A DNA stretch of 64,000 nucleotides from Thermocrinis jamiesonii (GTDB lineage Bacteria > Aquificota > Aquificia > Aquificales > Aquificaceae): assembly GCF_000702425.1 (NCBI RefSeq), contig NZ_JNIE01000002.1:310001-374000 (forward strand). Reading direction: 5' to 3'. The notes beneath the pieces were generated by a model that did not search any database, was not told the DNA's origin, and worked only from the letters and a program-made list of their open reading frames with translations. The translations under genes and the position numbers were made by a program. The first letter of the stretch is position 1; each line of letters opens with the position of its first letter. Positions 3,615 through 54,271 of this stretch are shown in pieces.

Positions 3615-3639
3615 TCTTTAACTCCTATCCACATAGATA

Positions 3640-15762: not shown

Positions 15763-16596
15763 ATGGGCCTTTTAGACAGATTTAGAAAAAAAGAGCAAAA
15801 GGAAACCTTATGGACCAAATGTCCCTCCTGCAAGGCTATAATTTATGTGCCAGAGCTGAAGGAAAACTTAAATGTATGTCCTAAATGCAATTACCACTTT
15901 CCAATGGGTTCCTTAGAAAGAGTTCAATCTCTATTGTCCAACCATTCCTTGATGTTTGAAAACATACTCCCCTCTGATCCTTTAAATTTTAAAGACTCTA
16001 AACCTTACAAAGAAAGAATTAAGCAGGCTCAAAAGGAAACCAATCTTACAGAAGCTTTAGTAGTTGCCAAGGGAAGCTTGGGAGATAAAGAAGTTGTGCT
16101 TTGTGTTATGGATTTTAGCTTTATAGGAGGCAGTATGGGTTCTGTGGTGGGCGAAAGATTCTACAGAGCGTGCCTATATAGTGCAGAGCATAAACTTCCT
16201 TTGATAGCCATCATAACCTCCGGTGGAGCAAGGATGCAGGAAGGTATCATCTCCCTTATGCAGATGGCAAAAACATCCATTGGCGTGGGTTTTCTAAAAG
16301 AAAAGAAAATCCCTTACATAACGGTTTTGACAAATCCCACTATGGGCGGTGTTTCTGCCAGCTTTGCCTTTCTTGGAGACATTATTTTGGCTGAGCCTGG
16401 CTCTTTAATTGGCTTTGCAGGTCCAAGGGTTATAGAACAGACAATAAAACAACAGCTTCCCGAAGGATTTCAAACCGCAGAATTTCTTCTTGAAAAGGGC
16501 ATGATAGATTTAATAGTTCATAGAAAAGAGCTTAAGGACACGCTTAACAAACTAATTAATATAGCCTCCTCGAGGAGAGGTTGCGGTGCTATATGA
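15763..16596 (+). CDS. accD: acetyl-CoA carboxylase carboxyltransferase subunit beta
   Basis: 277 aa. The N-terminal zinc ribbon has C20-x2-C23 and C39-x2-C42 (TKCPSCKAI, VCPKCNYHF). The crotonase-fold carboxyltransferase domain follows, with FSFIGGSMGSVVGE, SGGARMQEG and the oxyanion loop TNPTMGGVSAS. With AccA it transfers the carboxyl group from biotin to acetyl-CoA, the first step of fatty acid synthesis. The stop overlaps the start of scpA, which begins upstream of it at a GTG. The upstream gap is 28 bases, AT-rich, and holds TATTATAG about 20 bases before the ATG as a possible -10. Confidence 0.95.
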   Translation: MGLLDRFRKKEQKETLWTKCPSCKAIIYVPELKENLNVCPKCNYHFPMGSLERVQSLLSNHSLMFENILPSDPLNFKDSKPYKERIKQAQKETNLTEALVVAKGSLGDKEVVLCVMDFSFIGGSMGSVVGERFYRACLYSAEHKLPLIAIITSGGARMQEGIISLMQMAKTSIGVGFLKEKKIPYITVLTNPTMGGVSASFAFLGDIILAEPGSLIGFAGPRVIEQTIKQQLPEGFQTAEFLLEKGMIDLIVHRKELKDTLNKLINIASSRRGCGAI

Positions 16597-17188
16597 AGAG
16601 GAGCATCCTTTTGCAATAGCTTACAGATTGGTGGAAGAGGGCCGTTTAGACCCATGGAACGTTGACATAGCCCAGCTGGCGCGCATGTATATAGAAGAAA
16701 TAAAGAAAATGGAACTTTTAGACTTGCGCATACCTGCGAGAGCGGTTTATGCCGCAGTCTTTTTGCTAAAAAAACAGGTGGATGTGCTGTTTCCTGAACC
16801 AAAAAGAAGAAGGGAGAAGAAATACACCTTAGAAGAGATTGTTCAGATGTTTGAAGAGGAAGAAAAAAGCAATCTTCAAAGTGTGGAGACAACAAGCCTT
16901 GTAGTTGATCGGATAAAGGAAATTAAGAAAAAGGTAAAAGGATATAAGAAAAAAAGTGAAAAAAGGAAAACTATACCTATACACGTGTCAAAGTTTGAGA
17001 AGGCTCTTGAAGAACTTGAAAAGTTGATAAGTCAGGGGATCAAAGTCTTCTCCTTTTTGGACTTTGTGGGAAACAGAAACCCTGTGCCCTATCTTTTGAG
17101 TTTGATGTTTTTGTATCAGGATGGTAAAGTAAATGTTTATCAAAAAGAACCTTATTCAGATATTCTGGTTGAGGTCTTAATAACTTAA
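16586..17188 (+). CDS. scpA: segregation and condensation protein A
   Basis: 200 aa. The N-terminal motif (HPFAIAYRLVEEGRLDPWNVDI) is the ScpA kleisin N-terminal signature, followed by the helical LLDLRIPARAVYAAVFLLKKQ. ScpA bridges SMC heads with ScpB in the condensin complex. The protein is shorter than the common ~250 aa. The GTG start at 16586 lies inside accD and is preceded at five bases by GGAGAGG, which decides the start. A lysine-rich segment occurs in the middle (residues ~105-135). It is followed by tRNA-Leu. Confidence 0.85.
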   Translation: MLYEEEHPFAIAYRLVEEGRLDPWNVDIAQLARMYIEEIKKMELLDLRIPARAVYAAVFLLKKQVDVLFPEPKRRREKKYTLEEIVQMFEEEEKSNLQSVETTSLVVDRIKEIKKKVKGYKKKSEKRKTIPIHVSKFEKALEELEKLISQGIKVFSFLDFVGNRNPVPYLLSLMFLYQDGKVNVYQKEPYSDILVEVLIT

Positions 17189-25233: not shown

Positions 25234-26063
25234 ACTTCCGCTCCTTCCAAAGCTCTGTGACAATTGCAAGTCCTTTGATCTTCAAGCCTTTCCACAAAAA
25301 GCTTAAGTATAAGTTTTATTTCCTCTTCCTTGCTTTTCATTAAAGATATTACCTCGTCGCTGGTTAATCTGTATTTGGCAATTCCTGCCGCTGGGTTTGC
25401 TACCACACACAGACTGGCATAACACATTGCAAGCTCTCTTGCTAAGGCTACTTCCGGATAGCCCGTCATACCTACCACATCCCCACCTAAAATCTTTATA
25501 GCTCTTATTTCTGCGGGAGTCTCAAACCTTGGACCTTCTGTGCAAGCATAAACACCCGAAGGATGATAGCTCAGCTTTAGCTCTTCCAAAACATCCATCA
25601 AACACCTTCTCATCTGAGGACAGTATGCCTCTGACATATCCACATGGACCACCTTCTTATTTTTCAAAAGCTCAGCTGGTTTGTCATCTCCAGGCACATC
25701 CAAAGAATACGCTCCTTGGTAAAAAGTATCTTCTCTGCCCTTCGTAAAGTCTAAAAAGTCATCTATGATAACAAAATCTCCCGGTCTAAACCTTTCGTTT
25801 ATGGCTCCTACTGCAGAAATAGACAGAACTCTATTTGCTCCTATTTCTTTCAAAGCCCAAAGATTTGCCCTGTAGGGAACAAAAGAAGGACTATACTGAT
25901 GATTTAGTCCGTGTCTTGCCAAAAAGGCAACCCTTTTACCCCTTAGCTTTCCTATCAGAATAGGAGAGGATGGCTCACCAAAAGGAGTGGTTATTCTAAC
26001 CTCCTGCACCTCTTCCAGTTGGTCAATCCTGTAAAGCCCACTCCCTCCTATGACCGCAAGCAT
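25230..26063 (-). CDS. mtnP: S-methyl-5'-thioadenosine phosphorylase
   Basis: 277 aa of the PNP/MTAP class II family. AVIGGSGLY binds phosphate, [14 protein letters not shown] carries the RHG motif, and [14 protein letters not shown] with [15 protein letters not shown] completes the active site. The MTAP-type [16 protein letters not shown] occurs near the C-terminus. It cleaves methylthioadenosine, the by-product of polyamine synthesis; bpsA at 38031 makes branched polyamines and would generate that substrate. The C-terminus carries extra Cys and His residues (RTCNCHRAL). Confidence 0.92.
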
Positions 26064-26064
26064 G

Positions 26065-26478
26065 TTATTTGTTTAACCACTGCATAAAGTAGTATATCAT
26101 CCATCCTGTAATGGCAACGTAAAGCCACACAAAAGCAGTTACTGGGGCAATCTTTTTGTGCTTGTCAAAGAGTCCTTTAAAGGCATACCTGAGAGTTATC
26201 ACAGCAAGAGGAAAGTTGATAATAGCTAAGATCGTGTGTGTCCAAAGTATGAATAAAAATAATCCCTTGTATGGACCAGTGTAAGGCTGAGGTGGATACA
26301 AAAGGGTCTTTATCACATAAAGTAATACAAAAACAAGAGCAAAGATTGAGGCGTTTATCATAAAGAACTTGTGAATGTCCCTTTTCTTAAGCTTTATGAA
26401 TATAAGCCCACTTAAGATTGACAATCCGCTTATGCCTATGGTTATAAGACTAAGATAATTTATAAGCGAGTATATCAT
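26065..26478 (-). CDS. DUF420 membrane protein
   Basis: 137 aa with four membrane segments: [60 protein letters not shown] and [18 protein letters not shown]. His residues lie in DIHKFFM, WTHTILA and DKHKK. The layout matches DUF420, a family commonly found with haem-copper oxidases and Sco proteins and thought to help their assembly. It is immediately upstream of mtnP (one base between them), not near the cox genes. The likely start is ATG at 26478. Confidence 0.75.
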
Positions 26479-26562
26479 GACAGGTGTAATATGAATGAAA
26501 ATTATAACACAAAATCGGGCAATCAGGTATAATGTAGGATAACAAAAAGGAGGGAGATTGGA

Positions 26563-27684
26563 ATGAGCGGATGCTGTGAGAAGAAGATAATTTATGTGGG
26601 CGTGAGTGCTGGTAAGAATAAATACTTGTTAGATAGGTTAATTGAGCACTTTTGTGCAATGAGCGCGTTGAATAAGAATATTATTGAAAGAGTGTGTGAA
26701 AAAGCGCACGAGAATATCTACTACTACATGAACCCTTATCTTTGGCATCCAGATGTGGAGGTGGTTGTTATAACATTGGAAGGTATACAAGAAAAAAAAG
26801 TATCAGAAATAGAGAAAATATTAAGCAACATAGCTAAAAAAATAGATGAGAAATTGCAGAACAGGGGGATAAAAGAGAATGATTTAAAAGAGACCTTGGA
26901 GAAAATAATAAAAAAAGAAGCCTTGGAAAAAATAATAAAAACATTGGAATGTGAAAAAGCAAAAAAAGTATTAGAAATAAAGGAAATATTAAACAACATA
27001 GCTGAAAAAATAGAGGAGAAATTGCGAAACGGAAGGATAAAAGAGAATGATTTAAAAGAAGCCTTGGAGAAAATAATAAAAGAAACTTTAGAAAAAGCCT
27101 TAAAAATAGACGCAATAAAGAAAAAAGACATTAAAGAAGGAGATGAAGTAGAAGAGCTGGAGAAAAAAGAAGAAGAGCTGAGGATAGAGGAACTGAGGCA
27201 AACAATAAAAAAAATAAAAAAAATAATAGAAAAGTCGGGAAACAAAATAGGAAAAGAAACAATAGAGGAAATAATGAAAGAGATTGAAGAATTAAAGCTG
27301 AATTCAAAATTAAACTCTATAGTAAAGGATGCGTTTAATCTTCCTCTTAAACTTGAACTTACCGATATATTAGAAAAAATCCTCATTAGCATACTAAATC
27401 CAGAGCTAAACAAGAGCAAGGGGGATATATTAGAAGAAGTCCGTCAATTAGCTTTGCAGAGTTCTATCTCGGAAGACTTAAAGTCATACCTGTGTAATTA
27501 TGGCTTAAAAATAAGAGAAATAGCATGTCTCAAAGAGTTGTTGAAAAATTTAAAAGGATTCTACGTGATAAAACACAAAATGCTACCCGAGGAGTTTGAA
27601 GATACCGAAGAAGCAAAGAGATTTAGGGAATTCACTATGGATATATTTTGCGAATTTTTAAAAAAGAAAGAACGAAAAGCTTAA
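26563..27684 (+). CDS. repeat-containing coiled-coil protein, function unknown
   Basis: 373 aa. The N-terminal ~75 residues form an alpha/beta segment (KKIIYVGVSAGKNKYLLDRL, then WHPDVEVVVITLEG). Residues ~78-215 are very Lys/Glu/Ile-rich and helical and contain two direct repeats of ~48 residues, around EIEKILSNIAKKIDEKL and EIKEILNNIAEKIEEKL, each followed by IKENDLKE. The C-terminal 100 residues are a separate helical domain ending in basic residues. The gene is more AT-rich than its neighbours. AAAGGAGGGAG precedes the ATG, and TATAAT lies ~37 bases upstream. It converges on the 5S rRNA gene. I do not recognise the family. Confidence 0.75.
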   Translation: MSGCCEKKIIYVGVSAGKNKYLLDRLIEHFCAMSALNKNIIERVCEKAHENIYYYMNPYLWHPDVEVVVITLEGIQEKKVSEIEKILSNIAKKIDEKLQNRGIKENDLKETLEKIIKKEALEKIIKTLECEKAKKVLEIKEILNNIAEKIEEKLRNGRIKENDLKEALEKIIKETLEKALKIDAIKKKDIKEGDEVEELEKKEEELRIEELRQTIKKIKKIIEKSGNKIGKETIEEIMKEIEELKLNSKLNSIVKDAFNLPLKLELTDILEKILISILNPELNKSKGDILEEVRQLALQSSISEDLKSYLCNYGLKIREIACLKELLKNLKGFYVIKHKMLPEEFEDTEEAKRFREFTMDIFCEFLKKKERKA

Positions 27685-27708
27685 GGAAGATAACAATTTT
27701 TAATCAAT

Positions 27709-27829
27709 CCCCCGGGACGACCTACTTTCCCGTGCCGTTCGCCCGGCACAGTATCATCGGCGCTGGAGGGCTTAACTGCCGGGTTCGGAATGGAAACCGG
27801 GTGTTTCCCCTCCGCTATGGTCCCGAGGG
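27709..27829 (-). rRNA. rrf: 5S ribosomal RNA
   Basis: The ends pair as CCCTCGGGA (from 27829) with TCCCGGGGG (to 27709), the helix I of 5S rRNA. The internal sequence has the conserved CCGAACCCGGCAGTTAAG loop. The length of about 121 bases fits. It is the last gene of the rRNA operon and converges with the coiled-coil protein gene. Confidence 0.95.
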
Positions 27830-27861
27830 AAACTTGACAAATCAATTTTTCAACAGATAAA

Positions 27862-27893
27862 TTAGTGGCAACTCAATAGGTCTTTCTTCCTGT
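27862..27893 (-). other. 3' strand of the 23S processing stem
   Basis: Just downstream of 23S and before 5S, this segment is complementary to the 23S leader at 30838-30866: GGCAACTCAATAGG against GGCAACTGAATAGG, then TCTTTCTTCC on both. It extends the terminal helix of 23S rRNA. Confidence 0.75.
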
Positions 27894-27894
27894 A

Positions 27895-30835
<2,941 letters not shown>

Positions 30836-30837
30836 TA

Positions 30838-30893
30838 CAAGGAAGAAAGACCTATTCAGTTGCCAATTTGACATGGGCCCATTTAAGAGCCCA
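30838..30893 (-). repeat. rRNA leader element copy 2 (before 23S), with 5' strand of the 23S processing stem
   Basis: Minus-strand order: a GC hairpin (GGGC...GCCC), TGTCAAATTGGCAACTGAATAGG, then TCTTTCTTCC. From GGCAACTGAATAGG onward it is complementary, with very few mismatches, to 27867-27893 beyond the 23S 3' end. It therefore forms the long double-stranded stem from which RNase III would release pre-23S. The hairpin and TTGTCAA part recur before 16S and at 47824. Confidence 0.8.
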
Positions 30894-30911
30894 CAGCCTG
30901 CTTTGTAAGCA

Positions 30912-30983
30912 TGGAGATGGAGGGATTTGAACCCTCGACCTCCTGCTTGCAAAGCAGGCGCTCTCCCGCTGAGCTACATCCCC
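30912..30983 (-). tRNA. tRNA-Ala (anticodon TGC)
   Basis: The acceptor GGGGATG pairs with CATCTCC. The D-arm is GCTCAGCGGGAGAGC. The anticodon loop TTTGCAA gives TGC, and the T-loop is TTCAAAT. The discriminator A is at 30912 and no CCA is encoded. It lies in the spacer between 16S and 23S, nearer to 23S. Confidence 0.97.
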
Positions 30984-30999
30984 TTAATGCCCCAGACAA

Positions 31000-31073
31000 T
31001 GGGCCTCGGTGGACTTGAACCACCGACCTTGCCCTTATCAGGGGCACGCTCTGACCAACTGAGCTAGAGGCCC
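31000..31073 (-). tRNA. tRNA-Ile (anticodon GAT)
   Basis: The acceptor GGGCCTC pairs with GAGGCCC. The anticodon loop CTGATAA gives GAT. The D-arm is GCTCAGTTGGTCAGAGC and the T-loop GGTTCAAGTCC. No CCA is encoded. With tRNA-Ala it makes the usual Ile-Ala pair of the 16S-23S spacer. Confidence 0.97.
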
Positions 31074-31081
31074 TGCGGGAT

Positions 31082-31109
31082 TGACAACTCAATAGGGAGG
31101 AAGAACCCA
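31082..31109 (-). other. 3' strand of the 16S processing stem
   Basis: Between tRNA-Ile and the 16S 3' end, the RNA reads GGGTTCTTCCTCCCTATTGA then GTTGTC. This is complementary, with about two mismatches over 28 positions, to the 16S leader at 32703-32730. Such stems enclose pre-16S rRNA and are cut by RNase III. Confidence 0.8.
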
Positions 31110-31140
31110 CTTTGTAAGCCTGAAACTTTTTCTCCGTTAA

Positions 31141-32699
<1,559 letters not shown>

Positions 32700-32702
32700 A
32701 AC

Positions 32703-32760
32703 CTTGGGTTCTTCCTCCCTATTCAGTTGCCAATATGACAAGGGGCTTTTTATACCCCTC
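32703..32760 (-). repeat. rRNA leader element copy 1 (before 16S), with 5' strand of the 16S processing stem
   Basis: Minus-strand order: hairpin GGGG-TATAAAAAG-CCCC, TTGTCATATTGGCAACTGAA, TAGGGAGGAAGAACCC. The second half pairs with the 16S trailer at 31082-31109. The hairpin plus TTGTCA-WATTGGCAACTG is shared with the 23S leader and with a third copy at 47824-47867. Confidence 0.8.
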
Positions 32761-32786
32761 AACTTCTACCTTAGTTTCTAAAATTA

Positions 32787-32815
32787 ATTATATATCAGTT
32801 TGTGAAGGATGTCAA
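32787..32815 (-). promoter_or_regulatory. rRNA operon promoter, proximal
   Basis: TTGACA (32815-32810), exactly 17 bases, TATAAT (32792-32787), about 90 bases before 16S. Both boxes match the sigma-70 consensus perfectly. Confidence 0.85.
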
Positions 32816-32863
32816 GTCCTTTTACAAGGGGCCTACCTTATCAACCCCTCAAGTACATATATT

Positions 32864-32892
32864 ACTTTAATACATTCCACCTACTTTGTCAA
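32864..32892 (-). promoter_or_regulatory. rRNA operon promoter, distal
   Basis: TTGACA (32892-32887), 17 bases, TAAAGT (32869-32864). The -35 box and the AAAAGGAC before it are repeated from the proximal promoter. Immediately upstream, at 32901, begins the inverted repeat of the inserted TnpB-like element, so native upstream sequence is displaced. Confidence 0.65.
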
Positions 32893-32955
32893 GTCCTTTT
32901 GAGGCTGTTCGAAAAAATCCTTCAGGCAGTGCTGAGTAGTTATAATAAAAGCCTG

Positions 32956-34491
32956 ATGTATGTAAGCGTGCAGTTTAAACTCCAGCTAAACAGTCCTGAC
33001 AGAGAAAAGCTTTTGGAATTAATGCGTAAGCAATCATCCGCCATAAGGTCAGCTTATAAACTACTGAAAACCAAAAACTTCCATAACCAAATATACCAAA
33101 AGCTGAGACAACTTTTTCTTGACCTACCTACCAGATACATAGACTCTGCTATCTACAAAGCAAAACAGTATCCAACAGACAAAAAAGTTGTGTTTGGCGG
33201 TAAAGCCCTTTTTGAAAAGCTCTGTAAAAACAGAGACGAGAAAAGTAGGGAAAAGTTAAAAAGAAAGTGGAAGGAACAAAGACAGGGAACTTTAATAAGC
33301 GTAGGATCAAAGGCAGATAAAGGCAACAGACTTATGAGGTTTGAAAGCATAAACGGAGAACTTCTTTTAAGGATTACGGTAAGTGAGAGAAAGTTCATTT
33401 ACGCAAAGGTGTTAAGGGAACCAAGCAACGCAGAGGATAAGTGGAACACATTTTTGACTATGCTTCAAACGAGCTGGCAAAGTAAAGTTTATTTCCCTTA
33501 CACAGTAGAGCTAAAGCTAAGGGATGGAGAGATTTATGGGAATGTAAGTTTTGAGATACCAACTCTAGAGGTATGGCTAACCAAAGAGTATGGAGTGATA
33601 GCCATAGACACAAACGCAAGCCCTTTGCATTTAGCATTAGCAGAAGTAAGCCCTGATGGAAATCTTTTGAGCTATCAAACTATTAGCTTACACGAGTTTA
33701 TCAGCTTTCCAAAAAACAGAAAAGACTACGAAGAGTGGCTTTTGGCACACAAGATAGTAGAAATAGCAAAGGAGAAGGGAAAGGCAATAGCTATAGAAAA
33801 CTTAAAGAAAGTCAATAAAGGCTTTAGAGGAAACGGAAAAGCAAACCTAAGGAAAAGACTACATCATTGGAACTTTAAGAGCTTGCTCTCAAAGATTGAA
33901 AGAACCGCAAAACTAAACGGAGTAGAAGTTATCAAAGTCAATCCCGCTTTTACTTCTGTGATAGGAGCACTAAAATATGCACCACAGCTTGGGATAGACA
34001 AAGACATAGCGGGCGCATACGTGATAGGAAGAAAAGCATTAGGTTTTAAGGAAGAAATCCCAGAGAACTACCTAAAACTTCTTTCAGACAAGGAATACTT
34101 GGAGTATGCAATCTGCACTTACGAAGAGAAGGAAAAAGAGCTAAAAGAACAGCTTAAAAAAGAAACAAACCAATACAAAAGAAATGCCATAAACTCTGAG
34201 CTAAAGCAAGTTCAGAAGGCAAAGGACTTGCTTTTAGAAAAACTTAAAAGCCTTCAGGACGAGCCAAGTTCCTGTGAGGCCGTCAACGGAAGGAATCCCA
34301 AGCGGGGAGAGACTAAGAAAGTCTCTCAAAGTGCTTGGCAAGTTCTGAGGGTAGCCTTCCTCTTCCCTGTTCTTGGAAAGGTTCTATCGAGGGACCTTTC
34401 CCCTCTGAAGCCAGTGCTTGTGGAAGGGGCGTGGGACAGGGTAAGGAGAAGGTTAGTCCCCTTAGAGGTTGGGGGGGGGACGTCCCAATGA
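32956..34491 (+). CDS. divergent TnpB-related protein lacking the zinc finger
   Basis: About 511 aa from ATG at 32956; an in-frame ATG at 32809 lies in the rRNA promoter region, so the later start is preferred. RuvC-like motifs are recognisable: Asp in VIAIDTNASP (D218), Glu in AIAIENLKK (E281) and Asp in IDKDIAGAYVIGRK (D350). The CxxC...CxC zinc ribbon that normally lies before the last Asp is absent. After RuvC-III come ~100 helical Lys/Glu-rich residues and then an Arg/Pro-rich tail. The tail's DNA carries a strong hairpin, probably the guide RNA. It matches the class described as TnpB-related accessory proteins. Whether it cuts DNA is unknown. Confidence 0.8.
   Translation: MYVSVQFKLQLNSPDREKLLELMRKQSSAIRSAYKLLKTKNFHNQIYQKLRQLFLDLPTRYIDSAIYKAKQYPTDKKVVFGGKALFEKLCKNRDEKSREKLKRKWKEQRQGTLISVGSKADKGNRLMRFESINGELLLRITVSERKFIYAKVLREPSNAEDKWNTFLTMLQTSWQSKVYFPYTVELKLRDGEIYGNVSFEIPTLEVWLTKEYGVIAIDTNASPLHLALAEVSPDGNLLSYQTISLHEFISFPKNRKDYEEWLLAHKIVEIAKEKGKAIAIENLKKVNKGFRGNGKANLRKRLHHWNFKSLLSKIERTAKLNGVEVIKVNPAFTSVIGALKYAPQLGIDKDIAGAYVIGRKALGFKEEIPENYLKLLSDKEYLEYAICTYEEKEKELKEQLKKETNQYKRNAINSELKQVQKAKDLLLEKLKSLQDEPSSCEAVNGRNPKRGETKKVSQSAWQVLRVAFLFPVLGKVLSRDLSPLKPVLVEGAWDRVRRRLVPLEVGGGTSQ
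34298..34338 (+). ncRNA. predicted hairpin of a TnpB guide (omega) RNA
   Basis: CCAAGC (34298) pairs with GCTTGG (34333-34338). It encloses a perfect 8-bp hairpin, GAGAGACT and AGTCTCTC, with loop AAGAA. It is inside the 3' end of the tnpB-like gene, where such RNAs are encoded. The outer stem is conserved in the deleted copy at 36923-37105. The RNA ends are not known. Confidence 0.45.
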
Positions 34492-34523
34492 GGGGTTTTT
34501 CGAACAGCCTCAGTCCCTTTGAA

Positions 34524-35165
34524 AGGCTGTTCTAAAAATCCACCGAATACCTTAAAAATAGGTTAAAGCATAAGGCAGTGGATAAGGCAAACAAAAATAA
34601 ATAGATTACAAGTAACTAGAAGTTCCAAAGAATAGCACAGGCAATAGCCATCTTCCTTGCTAAATCCTTTCTCAAAAGATTAAAGCTTGAGCCAACCTTT
34701 TGCTTTATGCTCCCAAACAACTGCTCTACCATATACCTAACCTTCCCATACCTTTCCCAATTTTCCTTTGACAGCTTCCTTAAAGGATGTTTAATACTCA
34801 TCCTTATTGTTTCCTTTGTCCTTACCGCCGGTTTTAATCCTTTATCTAAAAGAGCTTGTATGATATTAGCAAAGTTTGCCCTTGTCCGCTATAAAAGGTA
34901 ATCCTTTTTGGGCTTCTAACCTACTTAATACTTTCCTTAACATCTCAATCTCACTCTCATAAACTCTTCCAGTTTCTACCACCATTATTATCTTTCTTCC
35001 ATCCTCATCTACCACCGTTACCACTTCAAGCCTAATGTGAGCCTGAACAGTTCTTATTTGTGTTTAGTAAGGGCATAAGGTTTTTTCAAAGGTAATCTGC
35101 TTCTTCTTATAAGGACCTTTTTTATACCATAACTTTCCTAAAGTGGCATTTTTCGAACAACCTCC
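34524..35165 (-). mobile_element. decayed DDE insertion sequence
   Basis: The left end GGCTGTTCTAAAAATCC (34524) and the right end, read in reverse, GGTTGTTCGAAAAATGCC (near 35165) are imperfect inverted repeats. They enclose a broken transposase gene. At ~640 bp it is far shorter than a complete element, so internal sequence has been lost. Similar ends occur at 32901 and 34496. Confidence 0.65.
34616..35154 (-). pseudogene. transposase remnant (DDE family), with stop and frameshift
   Basis: Reading the minus strand, one recovers LGKLWYKKGPYKKKQITFEK, then an in-frame TAA at about 35070. The next segment is IRTVQAHIRLEVVTVVDEDG through LPFIADKG, then a frameshift at about 34880. A final frame contains DKGLKPAVRTKETIRMSIKH and ends VEQLFGSIKQKVGSSFNLLR...CAILWNF. 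The ADKG Asp and the RYMVEQLFG block, where the catalytic Glu would lie, fit an IS5/IS4-like DDE transposase. The N-terminal part is missing. It is not functional. Confidence 0.75.
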
Positions 35166-35174
35166 TAAACCCTA

Positions 35175-35203
35175 TTGACAAGCTATCTAACCATATTTAT
35201 AAT
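35175..35203 (+). promoter_or_regulatory. promoter of the lipoprotein/rplU genes
   Basis: TTGACA (35175-35180), 17 bases, TATAAT (35198-35203), then AGAGGAGGTG before the ATG at 35241. All elements match consensus. The promoter begins just 10 bases after the IS remnant. Confidence 0.8.
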
Positions 35204-35240
35204 CATTTTGGAGTAAATATCTTTAGAGGAGGTGTAAGCA

Positions 35241-35468
35241 ATGAAAAAGTTTCTATTACTTGGAGTGGCTAGCTTAGCTGCATTTGTGGTGTCATGTCAA
35301 CAAAAACCTGCTGAGCAACCAGCGGAGCAACAGCCTACTGAACAGCAGCAACAACCTGCAGAACAACAGCAACCAGCTGAACAACAACAATCTGCTGAAC
35401 AGCAACAACCTGCTGAACAGCAACAATCTGCTGAACAACAACAACCTGCTGAACAACAACAGAAGTAA
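35241..35468 (+). CDS. Gln-rich repeat lipoprotein
   Basis: 75 aa. A lipoprotein signal peptide (MKKFLLLGVASLAAFVVSC) has its lipobox Cys at residue 19. The mature part is almost only Pro, Ala, Glu and Gln, with six tandem PAEQQQ/SAEQQQ units. The start of the mature protein, CQQKP, is identical to that of the cytochrome lipoprotein at 46250, whose linker is also Gln/Glu-rich. This suggests a shared origin. There is no folded domain; it may be an anchor whose functional domain was lost, or a structural spacer. Consensus promoter and ribosome binding site are present. rplU follows 53 bases after its stop. Confidence 0.75.
   Translation: MKKFLLLGVASLAAFVVSCQQKPAEQPAEQQPTEQQQQPAEQQQPAEQQQSAEQQQPAEQQQSAEQQQPAEQQQK
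35355..35462 (+). repeat. six 18-bp coding tandem repeats
   Basis: Each unit encodes (P/S)AEQQQ. The P/S alternation reflects CCT against TCT, giving an 18/36-base periodicity that is prone to slippage. Confidence 0.9.
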
Positions 35469-35521
35469 TCTAAGCCTTTGGAGGGGGATTTCTCCCTCCT
35501 CTTAAAAATTGGAGGTCGGGA

Positions 35522-35821
35522 ATGTATGCCATAATTGAGAGTGGTGGTAAACAGTATATGGTGTCTCAAGGGATGCGGTTAAGGGTAGAAAAGCTTCCTG
35601 TTCAGGAGGGGCAAACTGTTGAATTAAAGCCCATACTTATCGGAAAAGAAGGTGGAGAAATTCGGTTCAACACAGGTAAGGTTATCGCAGAGGTGGTAAA
35701 GCACGGAAAGGGAAAGAAAGTGATTGTGTTTAAATTTAGAGCTAAGAAAAATTACAAAAGGTGGAGAGGACATAGACAGCTTTTTACTGAGCTTCTAATA
35801 AAAGAGATAAAGGAGGAGTAA
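35522..35821 (+). CDS. rplU: 50S ribosomal protein L21
   Basis: 99 aa. [17 protein letters not shown] at the N-terminus and [23 protein letters not shown] at the C-terminus are diagnostic of bL21. It binds 23S rRNA domain I in the large subunit. TTGGAGGTC precedes the ATG. rpmA follows after one base, the usual L21-L27 pairing. Confidence 0.97.
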
Positions 35822-35822
35822 T

Positions 35823-36080
35823 ATGGCATCTAAGGCAAGTGGCGGATCAACAAGAAACGGTAGAGATAGTCACTCAAAGAGACTGGGTGTTAAAAGATTT
35901 GGAGGTCAATTTGTGCGTGCAGGAAATATTTTAGTAAGGCAAAGGGGCACAAAGATATATCCAGGTCAAAATGTGGGTATGGGATCAGACTTTACGCTTT
36001 ATGCTCTGGTAGATGGTATAGTTAAGTTTGAATCCAGGAAAAATAAAAAGTTTGTCAGTGTTATACCTTTAACTCAATAA
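35823..36080 (+). CDS. rpmA: 50S ribosomal protein L27
   Basis: 85 aa. [20 protein letters not shown] then [20 protein letters not shown] are typical of bL27, whose N-terminal tail reaches the peptidyl-transferase centre. There is no N-terminal cleavage extension of the Firmicutes type. A deleted TnpB element starts only ~11 bases after its stop. Confidence 0.97.
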
Positions 36081-36090
36081 AGGTAGTGAG

Positions 36091-36247
36091 CAGTTTTTTG
36101 ATTTTCTATTCAAGGTGTGTTATATTTATCTCCATGGATAGTATTACGCCTGACAAAATCTAAAGCCAAGGGGTGCAAAAGGACTTTCCAGACAAGTCTC
36201 CGTCCTACAAGCGGGTTATTTGGATAAGTATGGTTAAGGAAAAATGG
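36091..36247 (+). mobile_element. internally deleted TnpB element (family of the 2.1-kb copy), promoter and RNA-scaffold region kept
   Basis: Three blocks match the intact element at 2081-3702. 36091-36147 matches its left end, including the promoter TTGATT-17-TATATT (36098-36126). 36148-36205 resembles the tnpB 3' region starting CGCCTGACAAAA and running to CCGTCC. 36222-36247 is 26/26 identical to the extreme right end. The ~1.4 kb of coding sequence between them is gone. It lies between rpmA and the UbiE-like gene. A short transcript of roughly 115 bases could still be made from it. Confidence 0.7.
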
Positions 36248-36257
36248 GATGGGACTT

Positions 36258-36926
36258 TTATACCTTTTTCGCAACAGTTATATAAACGATTCCTAAGAGC
36301 TTTTTATGTATATTTGTTATTCTAAAACCTGCCTTTTCTAGCTCTTTTTTAAGTTCTTCCTCTCCAACGCTATTTTTCAGCGAATGTATGAAAAAATCCC
36401 ATTTATCTCTTCCAAACAGGACAATCCCTACAGGTTTCATAGGGTATTTCATAAAAAATACCAACATTGGCGTTAACCAAAATCTATTAATGTCCAATAT
36501 GGCTAATTTTCCGTCTTTTGCAAGCACTCTGCTTGCTTCTTTCAGAAACTTATCTCTATTGTATAAGTGCCTATATACTAAGGACAGAGTTAGATTTTTG
36601 AAACTACTGTCTTTAAAGGGAAGTTCTTCTGCATCTGCAAAGATAAAATAGCATTCCCTACATTTTCCTTTTGCCATTTTTAGCATCTCAAAAGAAATAT
36701 CTATACCCACCTTTAGTCCTTTAAATTTTGATCGCACTAACACTTCACCAGTACCTGTGCCAACATCTAAAGTGTTACCTTCATTATCAAGTAGGCTCAG
36801 CATATTACTTTGCCAGTTTTTTATTTTTCCAAAGGTCACAAGGTTCAAGAAAAAGTCGTAATATTTGCTTACAGAAGAAAAAACTTCTGAAACTGTATTC
36901 TTGAAGTTGTTCGACAAACCTCTCAT
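36258..36926 (-). CDS. UbiE/MenG-like class I SAM methyltransferase
   Basis: 222 aa. The N-terminal VSEVFSSVSKYYDFFLNLVTFG is the UbiE/MenG signature. SAM motif I is LDVGTGTGEVL, followed by GIDIS and the acidic motif ADAEELPF. In Aquificales the substrate could be demethylmenaquinone or a related quinone, fitting mqnC at 17860. The start ATG and the first ~11 codons (MRGLSNNFKNT) lie in, or next to, the right end of a deleted TnpB element. The ATG overlaps the stop of that element's mini-ORF by four bases. The exact start is therefore the notable uncertainty. Confidence 0.82.
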   Translation of the reverse strand: MRGLSNNFKNTVSEVFSSVSKYYDFFLNLVTFGKIKNWQSNMLSLLDNEGNTLDVGTGTGEVLVRSKFKGLKVGIDISFEMLKMAKGKCRECYFIFADAEELPFKDSSFKNLTLSLVYRHLYNRDKFLKEASRVLAKDGKLAILDINRFWLTPMLVFFMKYPMKPVGIVLFGRDKWDFFIHSLKNSVGEEELKKELEKAGFRITNIHKKLLGIVYITVAKKV

Positions 36927-37081
36927 TGGGATGTTTTCTCAACCTCCAAAGAAACTGACCTTCTTCTCACCAGAACATGGGAGGAATGCCAAGCACTTTG
37001 ACAGGTTCTTACTAGTCCATGCTTGGGATTGCTTGGCTCACTCTGAAGGCTGTTATGTTTGAACTGCACGCTCACATACAT
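36923..37081 (-). CDS. mini-ORF joining the N- and C-termini of the TnpB-like protein
   Basis: 52 aa, uninterrupted. It starts MYVSVQF exactly as the protein at 32956, then jumps in frame to a version of that protein's tail: QSAWHSS corresponds to QSAWQVL, and VRRRSVSLEVEKTSQ to VRRRLVPLEVGGGTSQ. The stop overlaps the next ATG as ATGA. It may be an accident of an in-frame deletion, or it may couple translation to the methyltransferase. It has no catalytic residues. Confidence 0.4.
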   Translation of the reverse strand: MYVSVQFKHNSLQSEPSNPKHGLVRTCQSAWHSSHVLVRRRSVSLEVEKTSQ

Positions 37082-37105
37082 CTCAAACTTTTATTATAAT
37101 AACAC
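36923..37105 (-). mobile_element. internally deleted TnpB-like element (family of the 32.9-kb copy)
   Basis: On the minus strand, 37100-37061 matches the start of the intact element at 32939-32978: TATAATAAAAG, then ATGTATGTGAGCGTGCAGTT. 37035-36926 matches its 3' end, with GTGCTTGG, AGAAGGTCAGT and CATCCCAATGAGAGG. About 1.3 kb of tnpB is missing. The outer guide-RNA stem CCAAGC/GCTTGG is retained. The element touches the start codon of the UbiE-like gene. Confidence 0.7.
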
Positions 37106-37126
37106 ACACGCTGGGTGAGAAATTAC

Positions 37127-38068
37127 CTATTTCTCATCCGACTTATAAACTACTTTAAGGGCATAATCTATGAGTATTTGAATTGGCTTTCTGTTAAGAT
37201 TTGGGTCCAAGAAAGGAACAGCATAGGGAGAGGTGTTAAGCTTTCTAAGGTCTTCATCCGATAGGTTTTGTTCTATCTTTTTTCCTGCCTTTGTTCCCCC
37301 TAATTTTCTTCCTACAGCCTTCGTATTCTGAAGGTTAAAGCCTAAGATCTTTAAAGCCTTCCTAACTGCAAGGGAAGAGGTGTAAGACACCCATACACCC
37401 TCTGGCTTTAGAAAGCTCGTCACCCTTTTTAAAAAGTCCAGACTCCAAAGTTCTGGATTCTTGTATGGGGAAAAGGCATCATGGAAAATAGCGTCCGCTT
37501 GAAAGTCCTTTACCTCTTGAACTTTCTCCCTTGCGTCACCTAAAAGAAGCTTAAAGCTTATTCCTTCCTTTTCAAACTCAGGCAGATTATCCCAAAGCAT
37601 GCGCCAATAAGGTCTGTACTCTTCAGGTGGAGGTAAAACTTCTTCAAGCAGTGTTTTTTCAAAAGAAAGAATCTGAATATTCACCTTTTTGTTTATATCC
37701 CTTAACTTTTTAATAAGAACTGCGGTGTTGTATCCTAAACCAAAACCCACATCCACCACCGTTATAAGCTTTGCACTTTCTGCCTTTTGGAGAAGGTCTG
37801 AAGGCTCTATGAACTTTTCTATGCATTCTGTAATTGCACCTGCGGTTATGCTGTGGTAAGGCTCTCCATAGTTCTGATCTACAAAAGTAAAAGAGCAGTC
37901 TTTGGTTTTGACCCAACCTTTACCTTCAACCGAAGGTTTTAACCAACCCTTTAAGGTTTTCAAAACTTCCCTTTTTTGCCCTTCTTCTAAGCGGTATCCT
38001 TCTTCTATCAAAAACTTTTCTAACTCTTCTTCAAGTAGTTGATCCCTCTTCGTCAAGGTAGAAAACAT
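37127..38068 (-). CDS. mnmD: MnmD-type (DUF752) tRNA wobble-uridine methyltransferase
   Basis: 313 aa. The SAM-binding motif is VVDVGFGLGYNTAVL and the catalytic region is FHDAFSPYKNPELWS, both characteristic of the MnmC methyltransferase domain. The FAD oxidoreductase domain of classical MnmC is absent, as in the characterised Aquifex DUF752 enzyme. It would methylate aminomethyluridine at position 34 of tRNAs to give mnm5U. The annotated ATG at 38068 overlaps bpsA by 38 bases and lacks a ribosome binding site. An in-frame TTG at 38056 is an alternative. Confidence 0.85.
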   Translation of the reverse strand: MFSTLTKRDQLLEEELEKFLIEEGYRLEEGQKREVLKTLKGWLKPSVEGKGWVKTKDCSFTFVDQNYGEPYHSITAGAITECIEKFIEPSDLLQKAESAKLITVVDVGFGLGYNTAVLIKKLRDINKKVNIQILSFEKTLLEEVLPPPEEYRPYWRMLWDNLPEFEKEGISFKLLLGDAREKVQEVKDFQADAIFHDAFSPYKNPELWSLDFLKRVTSFLKPEGVWVSYTSSLAVRKALKILGFNLQNTKAVGRKLGGTKAGKKIEQNLSDEDLRKLNTSPYAVPFLDPNLNRKPIQILIDYALKVVYKSDEK

Positions 38069-39098
38069 TGTCAGATATTACTTCGTTCCACCTTTTAAAA
38101 CCAGGGAGGACTTCCACTCTGTACCAGGCGGATTTATACCATATGGTTTTGGGATCTTTTTTCACAGGCGCCAGCTCTGCTGCCTTTGTTTCCTTATGGT
38201 AATCCCAAGTTATATAGTGATTGAAGTCCTGCACTATGTCAGTTATGGCTACTCCAAACTCCGATGTTAGGGCTATCTGAAAGTCCCTCCAGCGGAAGAC
38301 GGAAGAATCTCTAAGTGTTAGACCAAAGTAACCCACTCCTCCCTCTTCTCTGAGAGTTGCTATTCCCCTTCCTATGAAGGCTCTGAAGGCTGGCAAAGTC
38401 TCCGGTGGATCAGACACGAAAACGTCAAACTTTCCCAGCATTTCCTGTGGAAACGGATTTCTTAGGTCCCAAACCCTTGCCTCCGCATTGTCTATGCCAA
38501 GCTCTTTGAATATTCTGTTGTCAAAGTCAATAAGCCTTTTGTCTATGTCTATAACCAACACGCTCCTTGCCTTTCTTGTTAGCGCAATTGCCAAGCCTGT
38601 TAGGTCATCCTCCGCACCAAGCACTATTATGTCTTTGTTTCTCAGGTCTCCACGGGAGTCAATAAAGAGCACTCTTGCTATGGTGGTCTCTGGTGTAACA
38701 GATCCTTGGTCATAATCCCTTATAGCCTTTGGTCTGTCTTTGGTTAGCTGTATAAACTCTCTGTATAGCTCTATATCAGCATAAAAAGGTATGCCCCTAC
38801 CTTCGCAAGCTTTACAGGTGTAATCCGTAAAGGGCTCTATTCCCAGCTCTCTAACAAGGTCAAAGCCCTTTTGAGTTAATCTTAAGTTTTCTTCGTCGTC
38901 TATAAACAAAATGCCTTCTTCTATAAGCACCTTTACTATACCGGATGCGGCAGGCACCGGCAGGTCAGACATATCTATAATTTCCCAAAAATCTCCACTT
39001 TTTTGAACTGCGGACAGCACTGCTTCTACATTCCTTTTGTAAATTCTCACTCCACTTAGCTCTCTTGCCCTATTGGCAAGTTCTACCAAGGTTTTCAT
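38031..39098 (-). CDS. bpsA: branched-chain polyamine synthase (N4-bis(aminopropyl)spermidine synthase)
   Basis: About 355 aa. After an N-terminal winged-helix-like region (residues ~1-80) come YDQGSVTPETTIARVLFI, the nucleotide-binding VLGAEDDLTGLAIAL and DIDKRLIDF, and the catalytic SDPPET. BpsA adds aminopropyl groups to spermidine to make branched polyamines that thermophiles use to stabilise nucleic acids. Its by-product methylthioadenosine is the substrate of MtnP (25230). The GTG at 39104 is possible, but AGGAGG is better placed for the ATG at 39098. Two Cys (YTCKACEGRG) may bind zinc. Confidence 0.88.
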   Translation of the reverse strand: MKTLVELANRARELSGVRIYKRNVEAVLSAVQKSGDFWEIIDMSDLPVPAASGIVKVLIEEGILFIDDEENLRLTQKGFDLVRELGIEPFTDYTCKACEGRGIPFYADIELYREFIQLTKDRPKAIRDYDQGSVTPETTIARVLFIDSRGDLRNKDIIVLGAEDDLTGLAIALTRKARSVLVIDIDKRLIDFDNRIFKELGIDNAEARVWDLRNPFPQEMLGKFDVFVSDPPETLPAFRAFIGRGIATLREEGGVGYFGLTLRDSSVFRWRDFQIALTSEFGVAITDIVQDFNHYITWDYHKETKAAELAPVKKDPKTIWYKSAWYRVEVLPGFKRWNEVISDNVFYLDEEGSTT

Positions 39099-39227
39099 GC
39101 ACACCTCCTAAAATAGGCTTAGATGTTTTATTTTAACACAGGCGTTGCAATAAATTGTAAAAATAGATTTGCGTAAAAGCCATAAACTTATTTTGTATGA
39201 CCTAGGTTTTCTGTATCTTACTCTTTG

Positions 39228-40697
39228 ATGGAGATGTTTGACTATGCTGTCGTAGGAGGAGGTGTTGGTGGTGTGCTGGCCTCTGCTTTGCTTAGCAAGC
39301 TTGGTAGGTCCGTGATCCTTTTTGAGAGCCTTTCTTATCTGGGAGGTTGTGCTGGCACCTTCAAAAAGGATGGTTTTTATTACAACGCGGGAGCTACCAC
39401 CATAACAGGCTTAGAAGAGCCTATGCCTCTGGGAAAGATACTAAGCTTTCTTGAGGTTTCTCCAGCTTTAAAGGAACTCCCTATGTCTATGCAAGTGCTT
39501 GTGATGGATAAAAGGATCAATCTTTGGTGGGATTCTGAAAGGCTTTTGCAGGAGTTGGATAGCAACTTTAAAGGAGTGGCAAACTACAAACTGCTGTCTG
39601 AGTTAAAAAGTTCTTCCCATAGGCTTTGGCAAACTCTTTGGAAGTTCTTACCTTTTTCTGGATACACCAGCATATTAGGGTTCTTTTTAAGACATCCCTT
39701 TGAAGCTATACAACAACTGCTCTGGTATGCAAGAGGTGGTCAAACTTTCAAAAGTTATATAGCCGGACACCAAGATTATCGGCTGTTGCTTGACTATATA
39801 TCTTTAATAACCTCCCAGGGATTTTTGAAAGAAGTGTCTTACGCGGTTGCCCTTTTGGGCCTTTCCTATCCTATAAACAAAACTTACTACTCCTTTGGTG
39901 GCATGTCCAACCTGATTGAAAGCATAGCAAAGGTTATACCAACGATATACAGAAAAACCACTGTTTTTAAAGTGATCAAGGCTGATGGGTACTTCCTGCT
40001 GGAAACATCCAAGGGGCAGTTCAGAGCAAAGAGGGTAATACTAAACACGACCATCTGGAATTTAGAAGACCTTGTAGAAATAGATTCTGTAAAAGAATTT
40101 TCAAGAAAGGCTAAGAGAGTTTATTCCAAAGCCTGGTCTGCAATAACCCTTTATGCAAAGGTAAAAAAAGAACGTGCTAAGGACCTTCCCAGCCACATAC
40201 TTATCTTGGAAGAAGAGCCCCTTAGCGTGGGCGGGACCAAGGAGCTTTTCCTTTCTCTTTCTTTGCCCGAAGATAGTACAATGTCTTCCCAAGAGTATCT
40301 GAGCTTGACTGTATCCACACACGCGCGTCCTGAACTCTGGGAAAACATAACGAAGGAAGACTACGAAATGCGAAAAGAACTCATCAAGGAGGAGATATTA
40401 TGTAAAATTTACAAAAAGCTTCCAGCTTTAAAAGGTGCAATACAGAATGCCTTTGTGGGTACGCCAAAGACCTTTGAAAGATACACCAAAAGATACAAAG
40501 GTTTGGTGGGAGGAGTTCCTATGGTTCGCAAGTATTTTCCCTTTCGCTATCCACTTCCCTTTACAACGGTGGATGGCTTATTCTTGGTAGGTGATACGGT
40601 CTTCCCCGGTCAGGGTCTGCTGGGAGTTTCGGTAGGAGTAATAAACCTTCTGCTCTCTATAGAAAAGGACTTTAGAAAATGCTGGAACTACGCTTAA
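39228..40697 (+). CDS. CrtI/CrtISO-like FAD-dependent oxidoreductase
   Basis: About 489 aa. The N-terminal dinucleotide fold is FDYAVVGGGVGGVLASALL, followed by ESLSYLGGCAGTF and FYYNAGATTITG, as in phytoene desaturases and carotenoid isomerases. The C-terminal FAD motif is DGLFLVGDTVFPGQGLLGVSVG. The substrate cannot be told from sequence; carotenoid or other polyprenoid oxidation is the family expectation. The start could be ATG at 39228 or 39234. The 3' end overlaps the histidine kinase gene by 19 bases. The upstream gap (39105-39227) is AT-rich without a clear promoter. Confidence 0.82.
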   Translation: MEMFDYAVVGGGVGGVLASALLSKLGRSVILFESLSYLGGCAGTFKKDGFYYNAGATTITGLEEPMPLGKILSFLEVSPALKELPMSMQVLVMDKRINLWWDSERLLQELDSNFKGVANYKLLSELKSSSHRLWQTLWKFLPFSGYTSILGFFLRHPFEAIQQLLWYARGGQTFKSYIAGHQDYRLLLDYISLITSQGFLKEVSYAVALLGLSYPINKTYYSFGGMSNLIESIAKVIPTIYRKTTVFKVIKADGYFLLETSKGQFRAKRVILNTTIWNLEDLVEIDSVKEFSRKAKRVYSKAWSAITLYAKVKKERAKDLPSHILILEEEPLSVGGTKELFLSLSLPEDSTMSSQEYLSLTVSTHARPELWENITKEDYEMRKELIKEEILCKIYKKLPALKGAIQNAFVGTPKTFERYTKRYKGLVGGVPMVRKYFPFRYPLPFTTVDGLFLVGDTVFPGQGLLGVSVGVINLLLSIEKDFRKCWNYA

Positions 40698-41704
40698 GAG
40701 AATGGGTATACATAATGCTTTTTGCCTTGCTGATGGGCGCCTGCATGGGCACCTTTGTCGGCTTTCTGATCTCAGATAGCTGGCCTACTTATGCTCTTTC
40801 TGGAGCTATTATAGGTTTTTTCATATTTATCCTATCCCTGATTACCACCGAATTAAACAATAGGGTCCTTATAAAAAGGATACCTAAGCTCCTTAGAATA
40901 CCATTTAGCCTCGCACTTGCCTACCTTTCGGGATTTTTCGGTGGTTATATAGGCTACATACTTTGCAGGTACATTGCCCTTCTGGACATTGAACTTAAAC
41001 AGTTCCAGTTAATAGTTTCTTTGAACGTTCTCGGAATACTTACCGCATCGGTTGGTTTTTTGATATATCTGATAGTAATTTCTAAAAGAGAATGGGAACG
41101 ACTAAAGCTTAGATTAGTTACCCAAGAGCTCAAAAACTTAGAGCTTCAGATAAACCCTCACTTTCTTTTCAACATCCTAAACGCCATAGCGGAGCTGGTT
41201 TCCACAAACCCAGAGGAGGCAGAAAAGGCGTTGATTAACTTTTCCAAGTTCTTGAGGAAAACCCTCTACTCGGACTTCCTTATCACCCTCAGGGAAGAAC
41301 TGGAAAACCTAAAGGAATACTGGAGTATAGTTAAACTTAGAGTAAGAGAAAGAGTAAGTCTTGAAATACAAACGCAAGAAGACGTAGATTTAGAGGTGAA
41401 AGTACCCAAGTTTTGTGTGCAGATGCTTGTGGAAAACGCCCTAAAACATGGATTAAAGTGGCAAGCTGGAATTATAAAGGTGGTTGTAAGGCAAAAGGAT
41501 AGAAAGCTTTTCATCGAGGTGATGGACAACGGCGTAGGATTTAATAATCTAAAGGAAGGTGTTGGACTTAAAAATGTAAAAGACAGGTTAGCTTTAATAG
41601 GCGGGAAGCTTGATTATTACAGAGAAAGAGAGTTTTCGGTATTCAGAGTAGAGATAAGTCAAAGCACTTCAAGCCAAAACAGGTTTATCAAGTCAAGTCC
41701 CTGA
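40679..41704 (+). CDS. LytS/YehU-type sensor histidine kinase
   Basis: 341 aa. Four membrane segments occupy residues ~10-135. The His_kinase domain follows, with the phosphoacceptor in LQINPHFLFNILNAI (H161), and then an ATPase domain with VENALKHGLKW (N box) and DNGVGFNNLKEGVGLKNVKDRL (G boxes). There is no large sensor domain, so the signal is probably sensed in the membrane. The cognate regulator is probably the LytTR protein encoded 340 bases away on the opposite strand. Confidence 0.9.
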   Translation: MLELRLREWVYIMLFALLMGACMGTFVGFLISDSWPTYALSGAIIGFFIFILSLITTELNNRVLIKRIPKLLRIPFSLALAYLSGFFGGYIGYILCRYIALLDIELKQFQLIVSLNVLGILTASVGFLIYLIVISKREWERLKLRLVTQELKNLELQINPHFLFNILNAIAELVSTNPEEAEKALINFSKFLRKTLYSDFLITLREELENLKEYWSIVKLRVRERVSLEIQTQEDVDLEVKVPKFCVQMLVENALKHGLKWQAGIIKVVVRQKDRKLFIEVMDNGVGFNNLKEGVGLKNVKDRLALIGGKLDYYREREFSVFRVEISQSTSSQNRFIKSSP

Positions 41705-41976
41705 ATTGCAACAGCCTCCACCTTTCCAAACATAAAATATCTGTCTAACTGAAGACTACCCTTTGGAAGATGATACTTTATACCATTTTGGTAGTTAAGA
41801 ATCCTCGCATCCTCTTCCACAAGCTTTGGGTAATCTTTACCAAGAACAAAAAAGTTCAGTTTACCAAAAACTGTTTCCACAAAAATTTTACTTGGTACGT
41901 AGTCAAGCTCAAATACTAAGCTATCGTATAAGTTCAAAAAACCACCTACCTTACCGTCATAGATGACCTGTTTCAT
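41659..41976 (-). CDS. small protein of unknown function
   Basis: About 105 aa from ATG at 41976 (an in-frame TTG lies at 41985). It is soluble and mixed alpha/beta, with segments such as KIFVETVFGKLNFFVLGKDY and FGKVEAVAIQGLDLINLF. The 3' end overlaps the convergent histidine kinase gene by 46 bases. No ribosome binding site is obvious. The balanced amino acid composition and lack of low-complexity runs favour a real gene, but I do not recognise a family. Confidence 0.5.
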   Translation of the reverse strand: MKQVIYDGKVGGFLNLYDSLVFELDYVPSKIFVETVFGKLNFFVLGKDYPKLVEEDARILNYQNGIKYHLPKGSLQLDRYFMFGKVEAVAIQGLDLINLFWLEVL

Positions 41977-42044
41977 AAGAAACAAGATCTGTACTTACAG
42001 CAACTTTTGTATTCTTGTTTTTACAGATAGATTTTGTTTTATGT

Positions 42045-53473: not shown

Positions 53474-54271
53474 TCACTTTATATATTGTAAAACTACAAC
53501 AAACCAACCACCCTTTGACCTTATGCTTTTTACACCTACTGGATGATTTTTTACCATCTGCACAAATTCTTTCAGCTCGCTCTTGCCGTATATACCAGAA
53601 AATACTCCAATTTTGTTAAAGAGCTTAAGTATGCTAAGCATAGACTTTCTAAAAACATGTATGTCCAAGTTTGCCACCAAAAAATCAAAGGAACGTTCAA
53701 CATCTTCTGGAGTAGCTTGCAGAACTTTTATTTCAACTCCGTTTGTCTTTGCGTTTCTCTTGCACTCTTTGATGGCTAACGGATCAATGTCTATGGCAAG
53801 AACTTCTGATGCACCTAAAAACTTTAGAGCTATGGAAAGAATACAGGAACCGCACCCTACATCTATGGCACTCCAGCCAGGGTGAAAAAATCTTTGCATG
53901 GATCTGAGGCACAATTGGGTAGTAGGATGAAGGCCTGTGCCAAAAGCACTACCGGGATTTATCACTACAGCCTTTATCCAAGGTGGAATGATTAAAAAAT
54001 CCCCAACTTTAATAGGTTTAAAGCTCTCCTTAGGAGCTTTCACCTTTACTTGGGACACCTCTATAGGTTCCATTCCATGCAAAGGCTCATAAACTGCAAA
54101 CTCCACATCCTCTCCTTCTTTGACTATTTCCAAACCCTTTCCATACCTTAGCAAGAACTCGTAGAATTCTTCCTTTTGCATACGGTAGATGTATCGCTTG
54201 TATATCATGGAACAAGTTATTATAGCTCCATCTTCTCCTTTAAGCACCTTTGCTTTACCCTTAGGAAACAT
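53474..54271 (-). CDS. prmA: ribosomal protein L11 methyltransferase
   Basis: About 265 aa. The substrate-recognition N-terminal domain is followed by the PrmA hallmark VINPGSAFGTGLHPTTQLCL. SAM motif I is AIDVGCGSCILSIA and the active-site motif is FLVANLDIH (the usual NILA is NLDI). It trimethylates L11 in the cytoplasm. The 269-base region upstream (54275-54543) shows no convincing gene; it ends with TTGACA at 54515 ahead of otsAB. Confidence 0.88.
   Translation of the reverse strand: MFPKGKAKVLKGEDGAIITCSMIYKRYIYRMQKEEFYEFLLRYGKGLEIVKEGEDVEFAVYEPLHGMEPIEVSQVKVKAPKESFKPIKVGDFLIIPPWIKAVVINPGSAFGTGLHPTTQLCLRSMQRFFHPGWSAIDVGCGSCILSIALKFLGASEVLAIDIDPLAIKECKRNAKTNGVEIKVLQATPEDVERSFDFLVANLDIHVFRKSMLSILKLFNKIGVFSGIYGKSELKEFVQMVKNHPVGVKSIRSKGGWFVVVLQYIK

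Follow-up and report, generated by a model that had tools for sequence, protein, structure and literature searches.

How does a gene lying among mobile-element remnants obtain its start codon? The question is raised by a ubiE/menG-type methyltransferase gene in a 64,000-nucleotide stretch of Thermocrinis jamiesonii DNA (the window; all positions are numbered within it unless a contig is named). The genome of strain GBS1 is described as 10 contigs with 1,315,625 bp (PMC5073254). The gene (36258-36926, minus strand) encodes a 222-aa protein with the domain PF01209 (E-value: 2e-26); its best NCBIfam match is TIGR01934 (122.6 bits, below the cut-off of 158). A reading of the sequence alone (the sequence-only reading) had proposed that a deletion derivative of a TnpB element supplies the promoter, translational coupling and first codons of this gene. 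As discussed below, the remnant is very probably the decayed right half of a non-autonomous TnpB transposon bounded by terminal inverted repeats (TIRs), whose outward ATG would re-start ubiE with approximately eight element residues.

The remnant (36903-37106, minus strand) has an intact right end and lacks the left TIR. It aligns with the full-length element at 32901-34511 in four collinear blastn blocks and shares with it repeat pairs I1, I2, I3, I7, I8 and I9. The first block (37106-37057; 82% over 50 columns, E-value: 1e-8) holds TATAAT, the ATG and the first codons, and is followed by a second at 37060-37032 (83%). The third (37034-36987; 78%, E-value: 1e-6) holds the CCAAGC/GCTTGG arms, and the fourth (36971-36902; 74%, E-value: 5e-10) holds the end of the TnpB frame and the right TIR. 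All of the anatomy described in the sequence-only reading is found here, namely TATAAT (37098-37093), MYVSVQFK, the CCAAGC/GCTTGG arms, the last TnpB codons, the 52-aa frame and the ATGA. That reading had correctly recognized a copy but ended it at 36923; homology continues for a further 20 bp to 36903, the last base of the right TIR. This TIR (36903-36921, minus strand; C2:346903-346921 in the TIR scan) is within the ubiE reading frame, a position also given by inverted-repeat pair I1 (33 nt, 85%). Because only the right TIR is present, the ubiE remnant is not a MITE, which would be short and have both TIRs.

ORF reading and alignment to the full-length element identify a 52-aa leader frame (36923-37081, minus strand) made of fused first and last TnpB codons. 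The leader is open, with the TnpB frame kept across every junction, and its TGA overlaps the ubiE ATG (36926) as ATGA. This anatomy suggests that ubiE translation is coupled to the leader. A promoter-like site, TTCTCA-17-TATAAT (37093-37121, minus strand), is a consensus match only. The proposal of an element-derived promoter holds in that the -10 is element DNA, from which ubiE may be transcribed, but the best -35-like hexamer (TTCTCA, 37121-37116) is outside the homology and is a chance-level match, such matches occurring at a rate of 0.7 per shuffle. The sequence AATTTCTCACCCAGCGT (37107-37127), immediately 5' of the remnant, is present in slightly altered form at several other genome sites, three of which were read, and is possibly a promoter or repeat motif.

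On the other side of ubiE is a short remnant (36137-36251, plus strand) derived from the 3' end of a zinc-finger TnpB that belongs to a different family. It has collinear blocks to positions 1265-1470 of L102, whose protein matches PF07282; the match at 36207-36251 (85% over 46 columns, E-value: 2e-7) is accompanied by two weak collinear blocks. Two TnpB families do flank the gene, as had been pointed out, but the zinc-finger remnant, though real, is short, and the flanking by two families may have no bearing on ubiE. Most of a small lipoprotein-like frame of 75 aa at positions 35241-35468 is an 18-bp repeat in which codons for Gln, Pro, Ala and Glu are abundant.

The full-length element (32901-34511, plus strand; 1611 bp) has TIRs at 32901-32916 and 34496-34511 and a target-site duplication matching at 9 of 10 positions. 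It carries a single large gene, which is tnpB-like, without a TnpA of its own. The encoded 511-aa protein (32956-34491, plus strand) passes the TnpB profile TIGR01766 (67 bits, cut-off 32) and scores 46 bits against guided_TnpB NF040570, under the cut-off of 100. In a seven-sequence alignment (A1) a RuvC-like acidic triad picked by inspection (D218, E281, D350) is invariant, and the cysteines of the CXXC zinc finger of the C-terminal domain are absent after TSVIG. A contig search with TnpB gave a single match, distant and archaeal.

Full-length copies of this element are bounded by GAGGCTGTTCGAAAAA repeats. A genome scan that allowed up to 2 mismatches gives 30 occurrences of the TIR 16-mer versus 4 of the reversed control. 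The 10-bp direct repeats TTTTTGTACT and TACACTCCCT flank the copies at C5:68277-68715 and C6:12699-14307, respectively. Among 29 scored TIR pairs (two false ones, L246 and L247, being kept in the denominator), 13 copies from seven genomes and three genera have duplications of at least 9/10. In a set of 27 target-site duplications, A is preferred at the first position (21/27) and T at the last (14/27). Two copies of 435 and 439 bp (L090 and L091) share the same internal deletion, a MITE-like form, and one of them has an exact 10-bp target duplication, so the internally deleted forms seem to be mobile too.

Next to the full-length element is a broken DDE insertion sequence (34523-35164, minus strand) with the same TIRs and a PF01609 match on its fragment. 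An intact relative in a congener (L216) has GAGGCTGTTCTAAAAAT ends that equal the TnpB-element TIRs, an exact 10-bp duplication and a 278-aa open frame (PF01609, E-value: 2e-12); NCBIfam IS5/IS4 matches of this type of transposase are under their cut-offs. Because of the TIRs, the 10-bp duplications and the DDE insertion sequence with the same ends, the TnpB element is probably a non-autonomous passenger of the latter. In the simplest interpretation, DDE ends captured an IS607-type TnpB, which the DDE transposase would move in trans. In another locus (L092; G000:C2:240500-248500, local positions 1552-3821) a DDE insertion sequence adjoins a TnpB element, and AGATCCTTAT (10 bp) is present on both outer flanks, as though the two had transposed together; the elements at 32901-35164 are likewise arranged side by side. 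In genome G029, TnpB-related elements (L253-L256) have a different repeat (about CAGGGTGTTTCAAAAATA), with duplications of 9-10 of 10 in three of the four, and TnpB-related elements may therefore have captured TIRs more than once.

The sequence-only reading had assumed an ordinary IS605/IS607-type TnpB element, a deletion derivative of which gives the promoter, coupling and codons. The relationship to TnpB through TIGR01766 agrees with this, as do same-family proteins in other Aquificales (46-49% identical, alignment A1), some of which have an IS607 transposase gene immediately before their own (NF033518; two were tested and score 231 and 223 bits). Related TnpBs elsewhere in the order are not bounded by TIRs like those of the window element. 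However, IS607 elements are described as having neither terminal inverted repeats nor target duplications (PMC6188088), and both are present here. The window element also has no tnpA for a Y1 or serine recombinase and no CCAGG-type 3' end, which places it outside IS200/IS605 and IS607, and IS607 TnpA was found only next to TnpB relatives without TIRs. As a whole this explanation is very unlikely: its family part is contradicted, while its codon-donation part survives.

The element shares TIRs and a 10-bp target duplication with DDE insertion sequences of the DDE_Tnp_1 (IS5/IS4-like) type, but holds TnpB in the place of the transposase. Eukaryotic TnpB homologues (Fanzors) are reported inside TIR cut-and-paste transposons and likewise place a TnpB-type protein in a DDE/TIR element with target duplications (PMC10711439); their hosts are eukaryotic or viral, and the bacterial case would be a separate capture. 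The bacterial TnpB elements covered in PMC9956272 are described as IS605 and IS607, without DDE transposases. A literature search that covered few subscription papers, and so is not proof of absence, recognized no TnpB in a bacterial DDE element.

At ubiE, the start codon and first eight codons (ATGAGAGGTTTGTCGAACAACTTC, encoding MRGLSNNF; 36903-36926, minus strand) are attributed to the element by alignment to its right ends and by orthologue matches that begin at approximately residue 9. Read outward, ATG AGA GGT TTG TCG AAC AAC TTC is element DNA and the following AAG AAT ACA GTT is host DNA. Other ubiE proteins begin MITKK.., MKHKQ.. or similar (29 loci from relatives listed), and neither the MRGLSNNF N-terminus nor the upstream sequence, which would have spoken against an element origin, occurs in any of these 29. 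The orthologue alignment enters the chimera at about residue 9 and Pfam homology starts at residue 10. Before codon 27 the only in-frame ATG, GTG or TTG codons are the ATG at 36926 and a TTG at 36917, both of which are element sequence; five codons upstream of the ATG there is a TGA in frame. If the conserved N-terminus is made from an ordinary start, the start codon is consequently that of the element, with translation predicted to initiate at 36926. The claim that the element supplies the first codons is upheld and includes the start codon itself, the same end having done likewise at other genes; start-codon donation by the element right end at ubiE is well supported.

Alternatively, ubiE could be transcribed from a promoter of its own and translated from a non-canonical start or one further downstream, which would make the element end a non-functional 5' flank. 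The poor ribosome-binding match fits this: a Shine-Dalgarno-like GGAGG is 16 nt before the ATG, too distant for a good site. There is, however, no in-frame ATG, GTG or TTG between codons 4 and 27, yet Pfam homology begins at residue 10. In addition, in a congener (G002) ubiE directly follows scpA, with an ATGA overlap of their own, while in the window scpA (16586-17188) is approximately 19 kb from ubiE, with a tRNA-like sequence and then a further gene behind it; this linkage is gone and therefore no native upstream DNA is visible. An own start is very unlikely on these grounds. A leftover native start upstream of ubiE was also considered and rejected: the 10 bp beside the TIR (AAGAATACAG) recur in the window only at 53837-53846, and not near scpA or the left end. 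The sequence ATAACTTAAAATAAA behind scpA, a candidate trace of the old ubiE start, is too weak for use.

The remnant might instead be a kept omega-RNA (guide-RNA) gene with the CCAAGC/GCTTGG stem under selection and ubiE a bystander. The stem region is among the best-kept blocks of the ubiE copy and the TnpB-related protein retains RuvC-like residues, but the stem is wholly or partly lost in the 237-bp, EndoV, 435-bp and 439-bp copies. Furthermore, IS607-type relatives end in ...TTTGGTTAACCAGG, which is absent from the TIR group, and Rfam finds no such RNA in 26000-42000. Retention of the stem is rejected as the reason for the remnant because other derivatives lose it, and this explanation is highly improbable.

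Start-codon donation recurs elsewhere in the same genome. Fourteen right ends were examined (including one at an endonuclease V gene that was outside the search pattern and was added from the TIR scan), and in 12 of these the outward ATG is open through the TIR. Three of the 12 run into gene N-termini, those of ubiE (222 aa), endonuclease V (219 aa) and a 128-aa protein, while the frames of the remaining nine are at most 45 aa. The endonuclease V (EndoV; PF04493) begins with MRNFFEQP from the element right end, followed by LEKIQIE.., where congeners have MDL[RK]ELEKIQ... The 128-aa protein, encoded beside a ROK-family gene, begins with MRNFSNSL from an element right end followed by IKKLRIED, where congeners have MALRKLK.IKIED. 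In most hits to these three proteins the orthologue match joins the chimera at residue 7-9. At all three genes the stop of a leader frame overlaps the ATG, the leaders having 52 (ubiE), up to 35 (EndoV) and 13 codons (128-aa protein). By a rough Poisson estimate, the chance of 3/12 ends falling in frame and no more than 10 codons from a gene start is 5e-5, a figure that ignores target-site bias and survivorship. The least likely explanation, that ubiE is a pseudogene broken by the insertion with an accidentally open N-terminus, would fit its relocation among mobile-element remnants, but ubiE is the sole genome match at E ≤ 1e-20, full length, stop-free and approximately 60% identical to congener orthologues, and the same N-terminal swap is present in two further genes with intact frames.

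Six relatives of T. jamiesonii contain 79 right ends, of which 78 were fetched and 62 parsed, the 16 without the expected context being dropped. Most have ATG (or ATA/ACA) followed by GGG ATT TTT AGA, so that the outward frame is closed by TAG. The outward ATG is open in 13/62, in most cases because of a sixth T or some other change in length, and 4 of these 13 lead into frames of at least 99 aa (L291, L296, L319 and L353). As at ubiE, EndoV and the 128-aa protein, the host frame in these four continues from element DNA as an in-frame transposon-gene fusion. The fusion count leaves out L327, where the frame precedes a gene that has an ATG itself, and two TTG-only cases (L294 and L308). The L291 frame is at least 273 aa and that of L296 is 99 aa with no Pfam match. 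L319 is RimM (PF01782 from residue 12) and L353 a protein kinase (PF00069 from residue 22), the native start being placed in both solely by where the Pfam domain begins. In L237/L291 a full-length TnpB element has a 9/10 duplication, and joining its flanks restores ATG AAC ATT TTG GAG, with the insertion located on the restored ATG itself. In L235/L296 an in-frame ATG has its first base 25 nt before the beginning of a full-length element, and the reading frame is maintained on the far side of the element. Because the elements are full length and the native ATG is visible, these two loci demonstrate that elements have inserted directly at a start codon or immediately behind it. Not every gene-start insertion is rescued, since in L302 a closed right end abuts the apparent start, with no obvious start codon, of a gene which we take to be glutamyl-tRNA-reductase-like. 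Several closed right ends in G001 are within genes and seem to be plain disruptions.

The proposed model for re-starting of a host gene is as follows. The TnpB stop overlaps, as ATGA, an ATG whose frame runs outward across the right TIR. If this frame has no stop in the TIR and the right end inserts in frame among the first codons of a host gene, that gene would be re-started by the element and would exchange its original start and N-terminal residues for approximately eight encoded by the element. The loci compared establish that one kind of transposon end has formed predicted chimeric N-termini at several genes and in several species. At ubiE and EndoV, adjacent deletion by the transposase could have acted instead of direct insertion; because the left TIR and the native start are lost, both routes would leave the same structure. 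In addition, ubiE has been relocated approximately 19 kb from scpA. A broader reading is tentative and would have to be regarded as doubtful. It holds that, in Thermocrinis and a neighbouring genus, the right end of TIR-bounded TnpB transposons is a translation start that travels with the element, such that insertion on a start codon swaps the start and ties translation of the gene to TnpB via ATGA. Essential genes could then be entered without cell death, loss of the element would cost the host its start codon, and a run of 5 or 6 T in the TIR would toggle the outward frame between open and closed.

In-frame fusions by small mobile elements are already known, with those of prokaryotic MITEs and Rickettsia palindromic elements reviewed in PMC10969869, and start-codon donation is a variant of such fusions. 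In both situations mobile DNA has become part of a host protein. The Rickettsia elements and MITEs are described there as within-gene insertions, whereas here the start and first codons are replaced, with an ATGA overlap with the element gene. The same literature search, with its few subscription papers, recognized no bacterial case in which a transposon end supplies start codons repeatedly.

A transposon end that gives start codons to three genes in one 1.3-Mb genome and to further genes in relatives forms a clean natural series, in which one can ask how gene-start insertions are tolerated and how annotation should treat N-termini. The element also places a TnpB-related protein in a bacterial DDE/TIR element, a context reported for eukaryotic Fanzors (PMC10711439). 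Because related elements have done likewise elsewhere in T. jamiesonii and in related genomes, mobile DNA can re-start genes, and it is possible that host genes in these organisms have repeatedly been re-started rather than broken by it.
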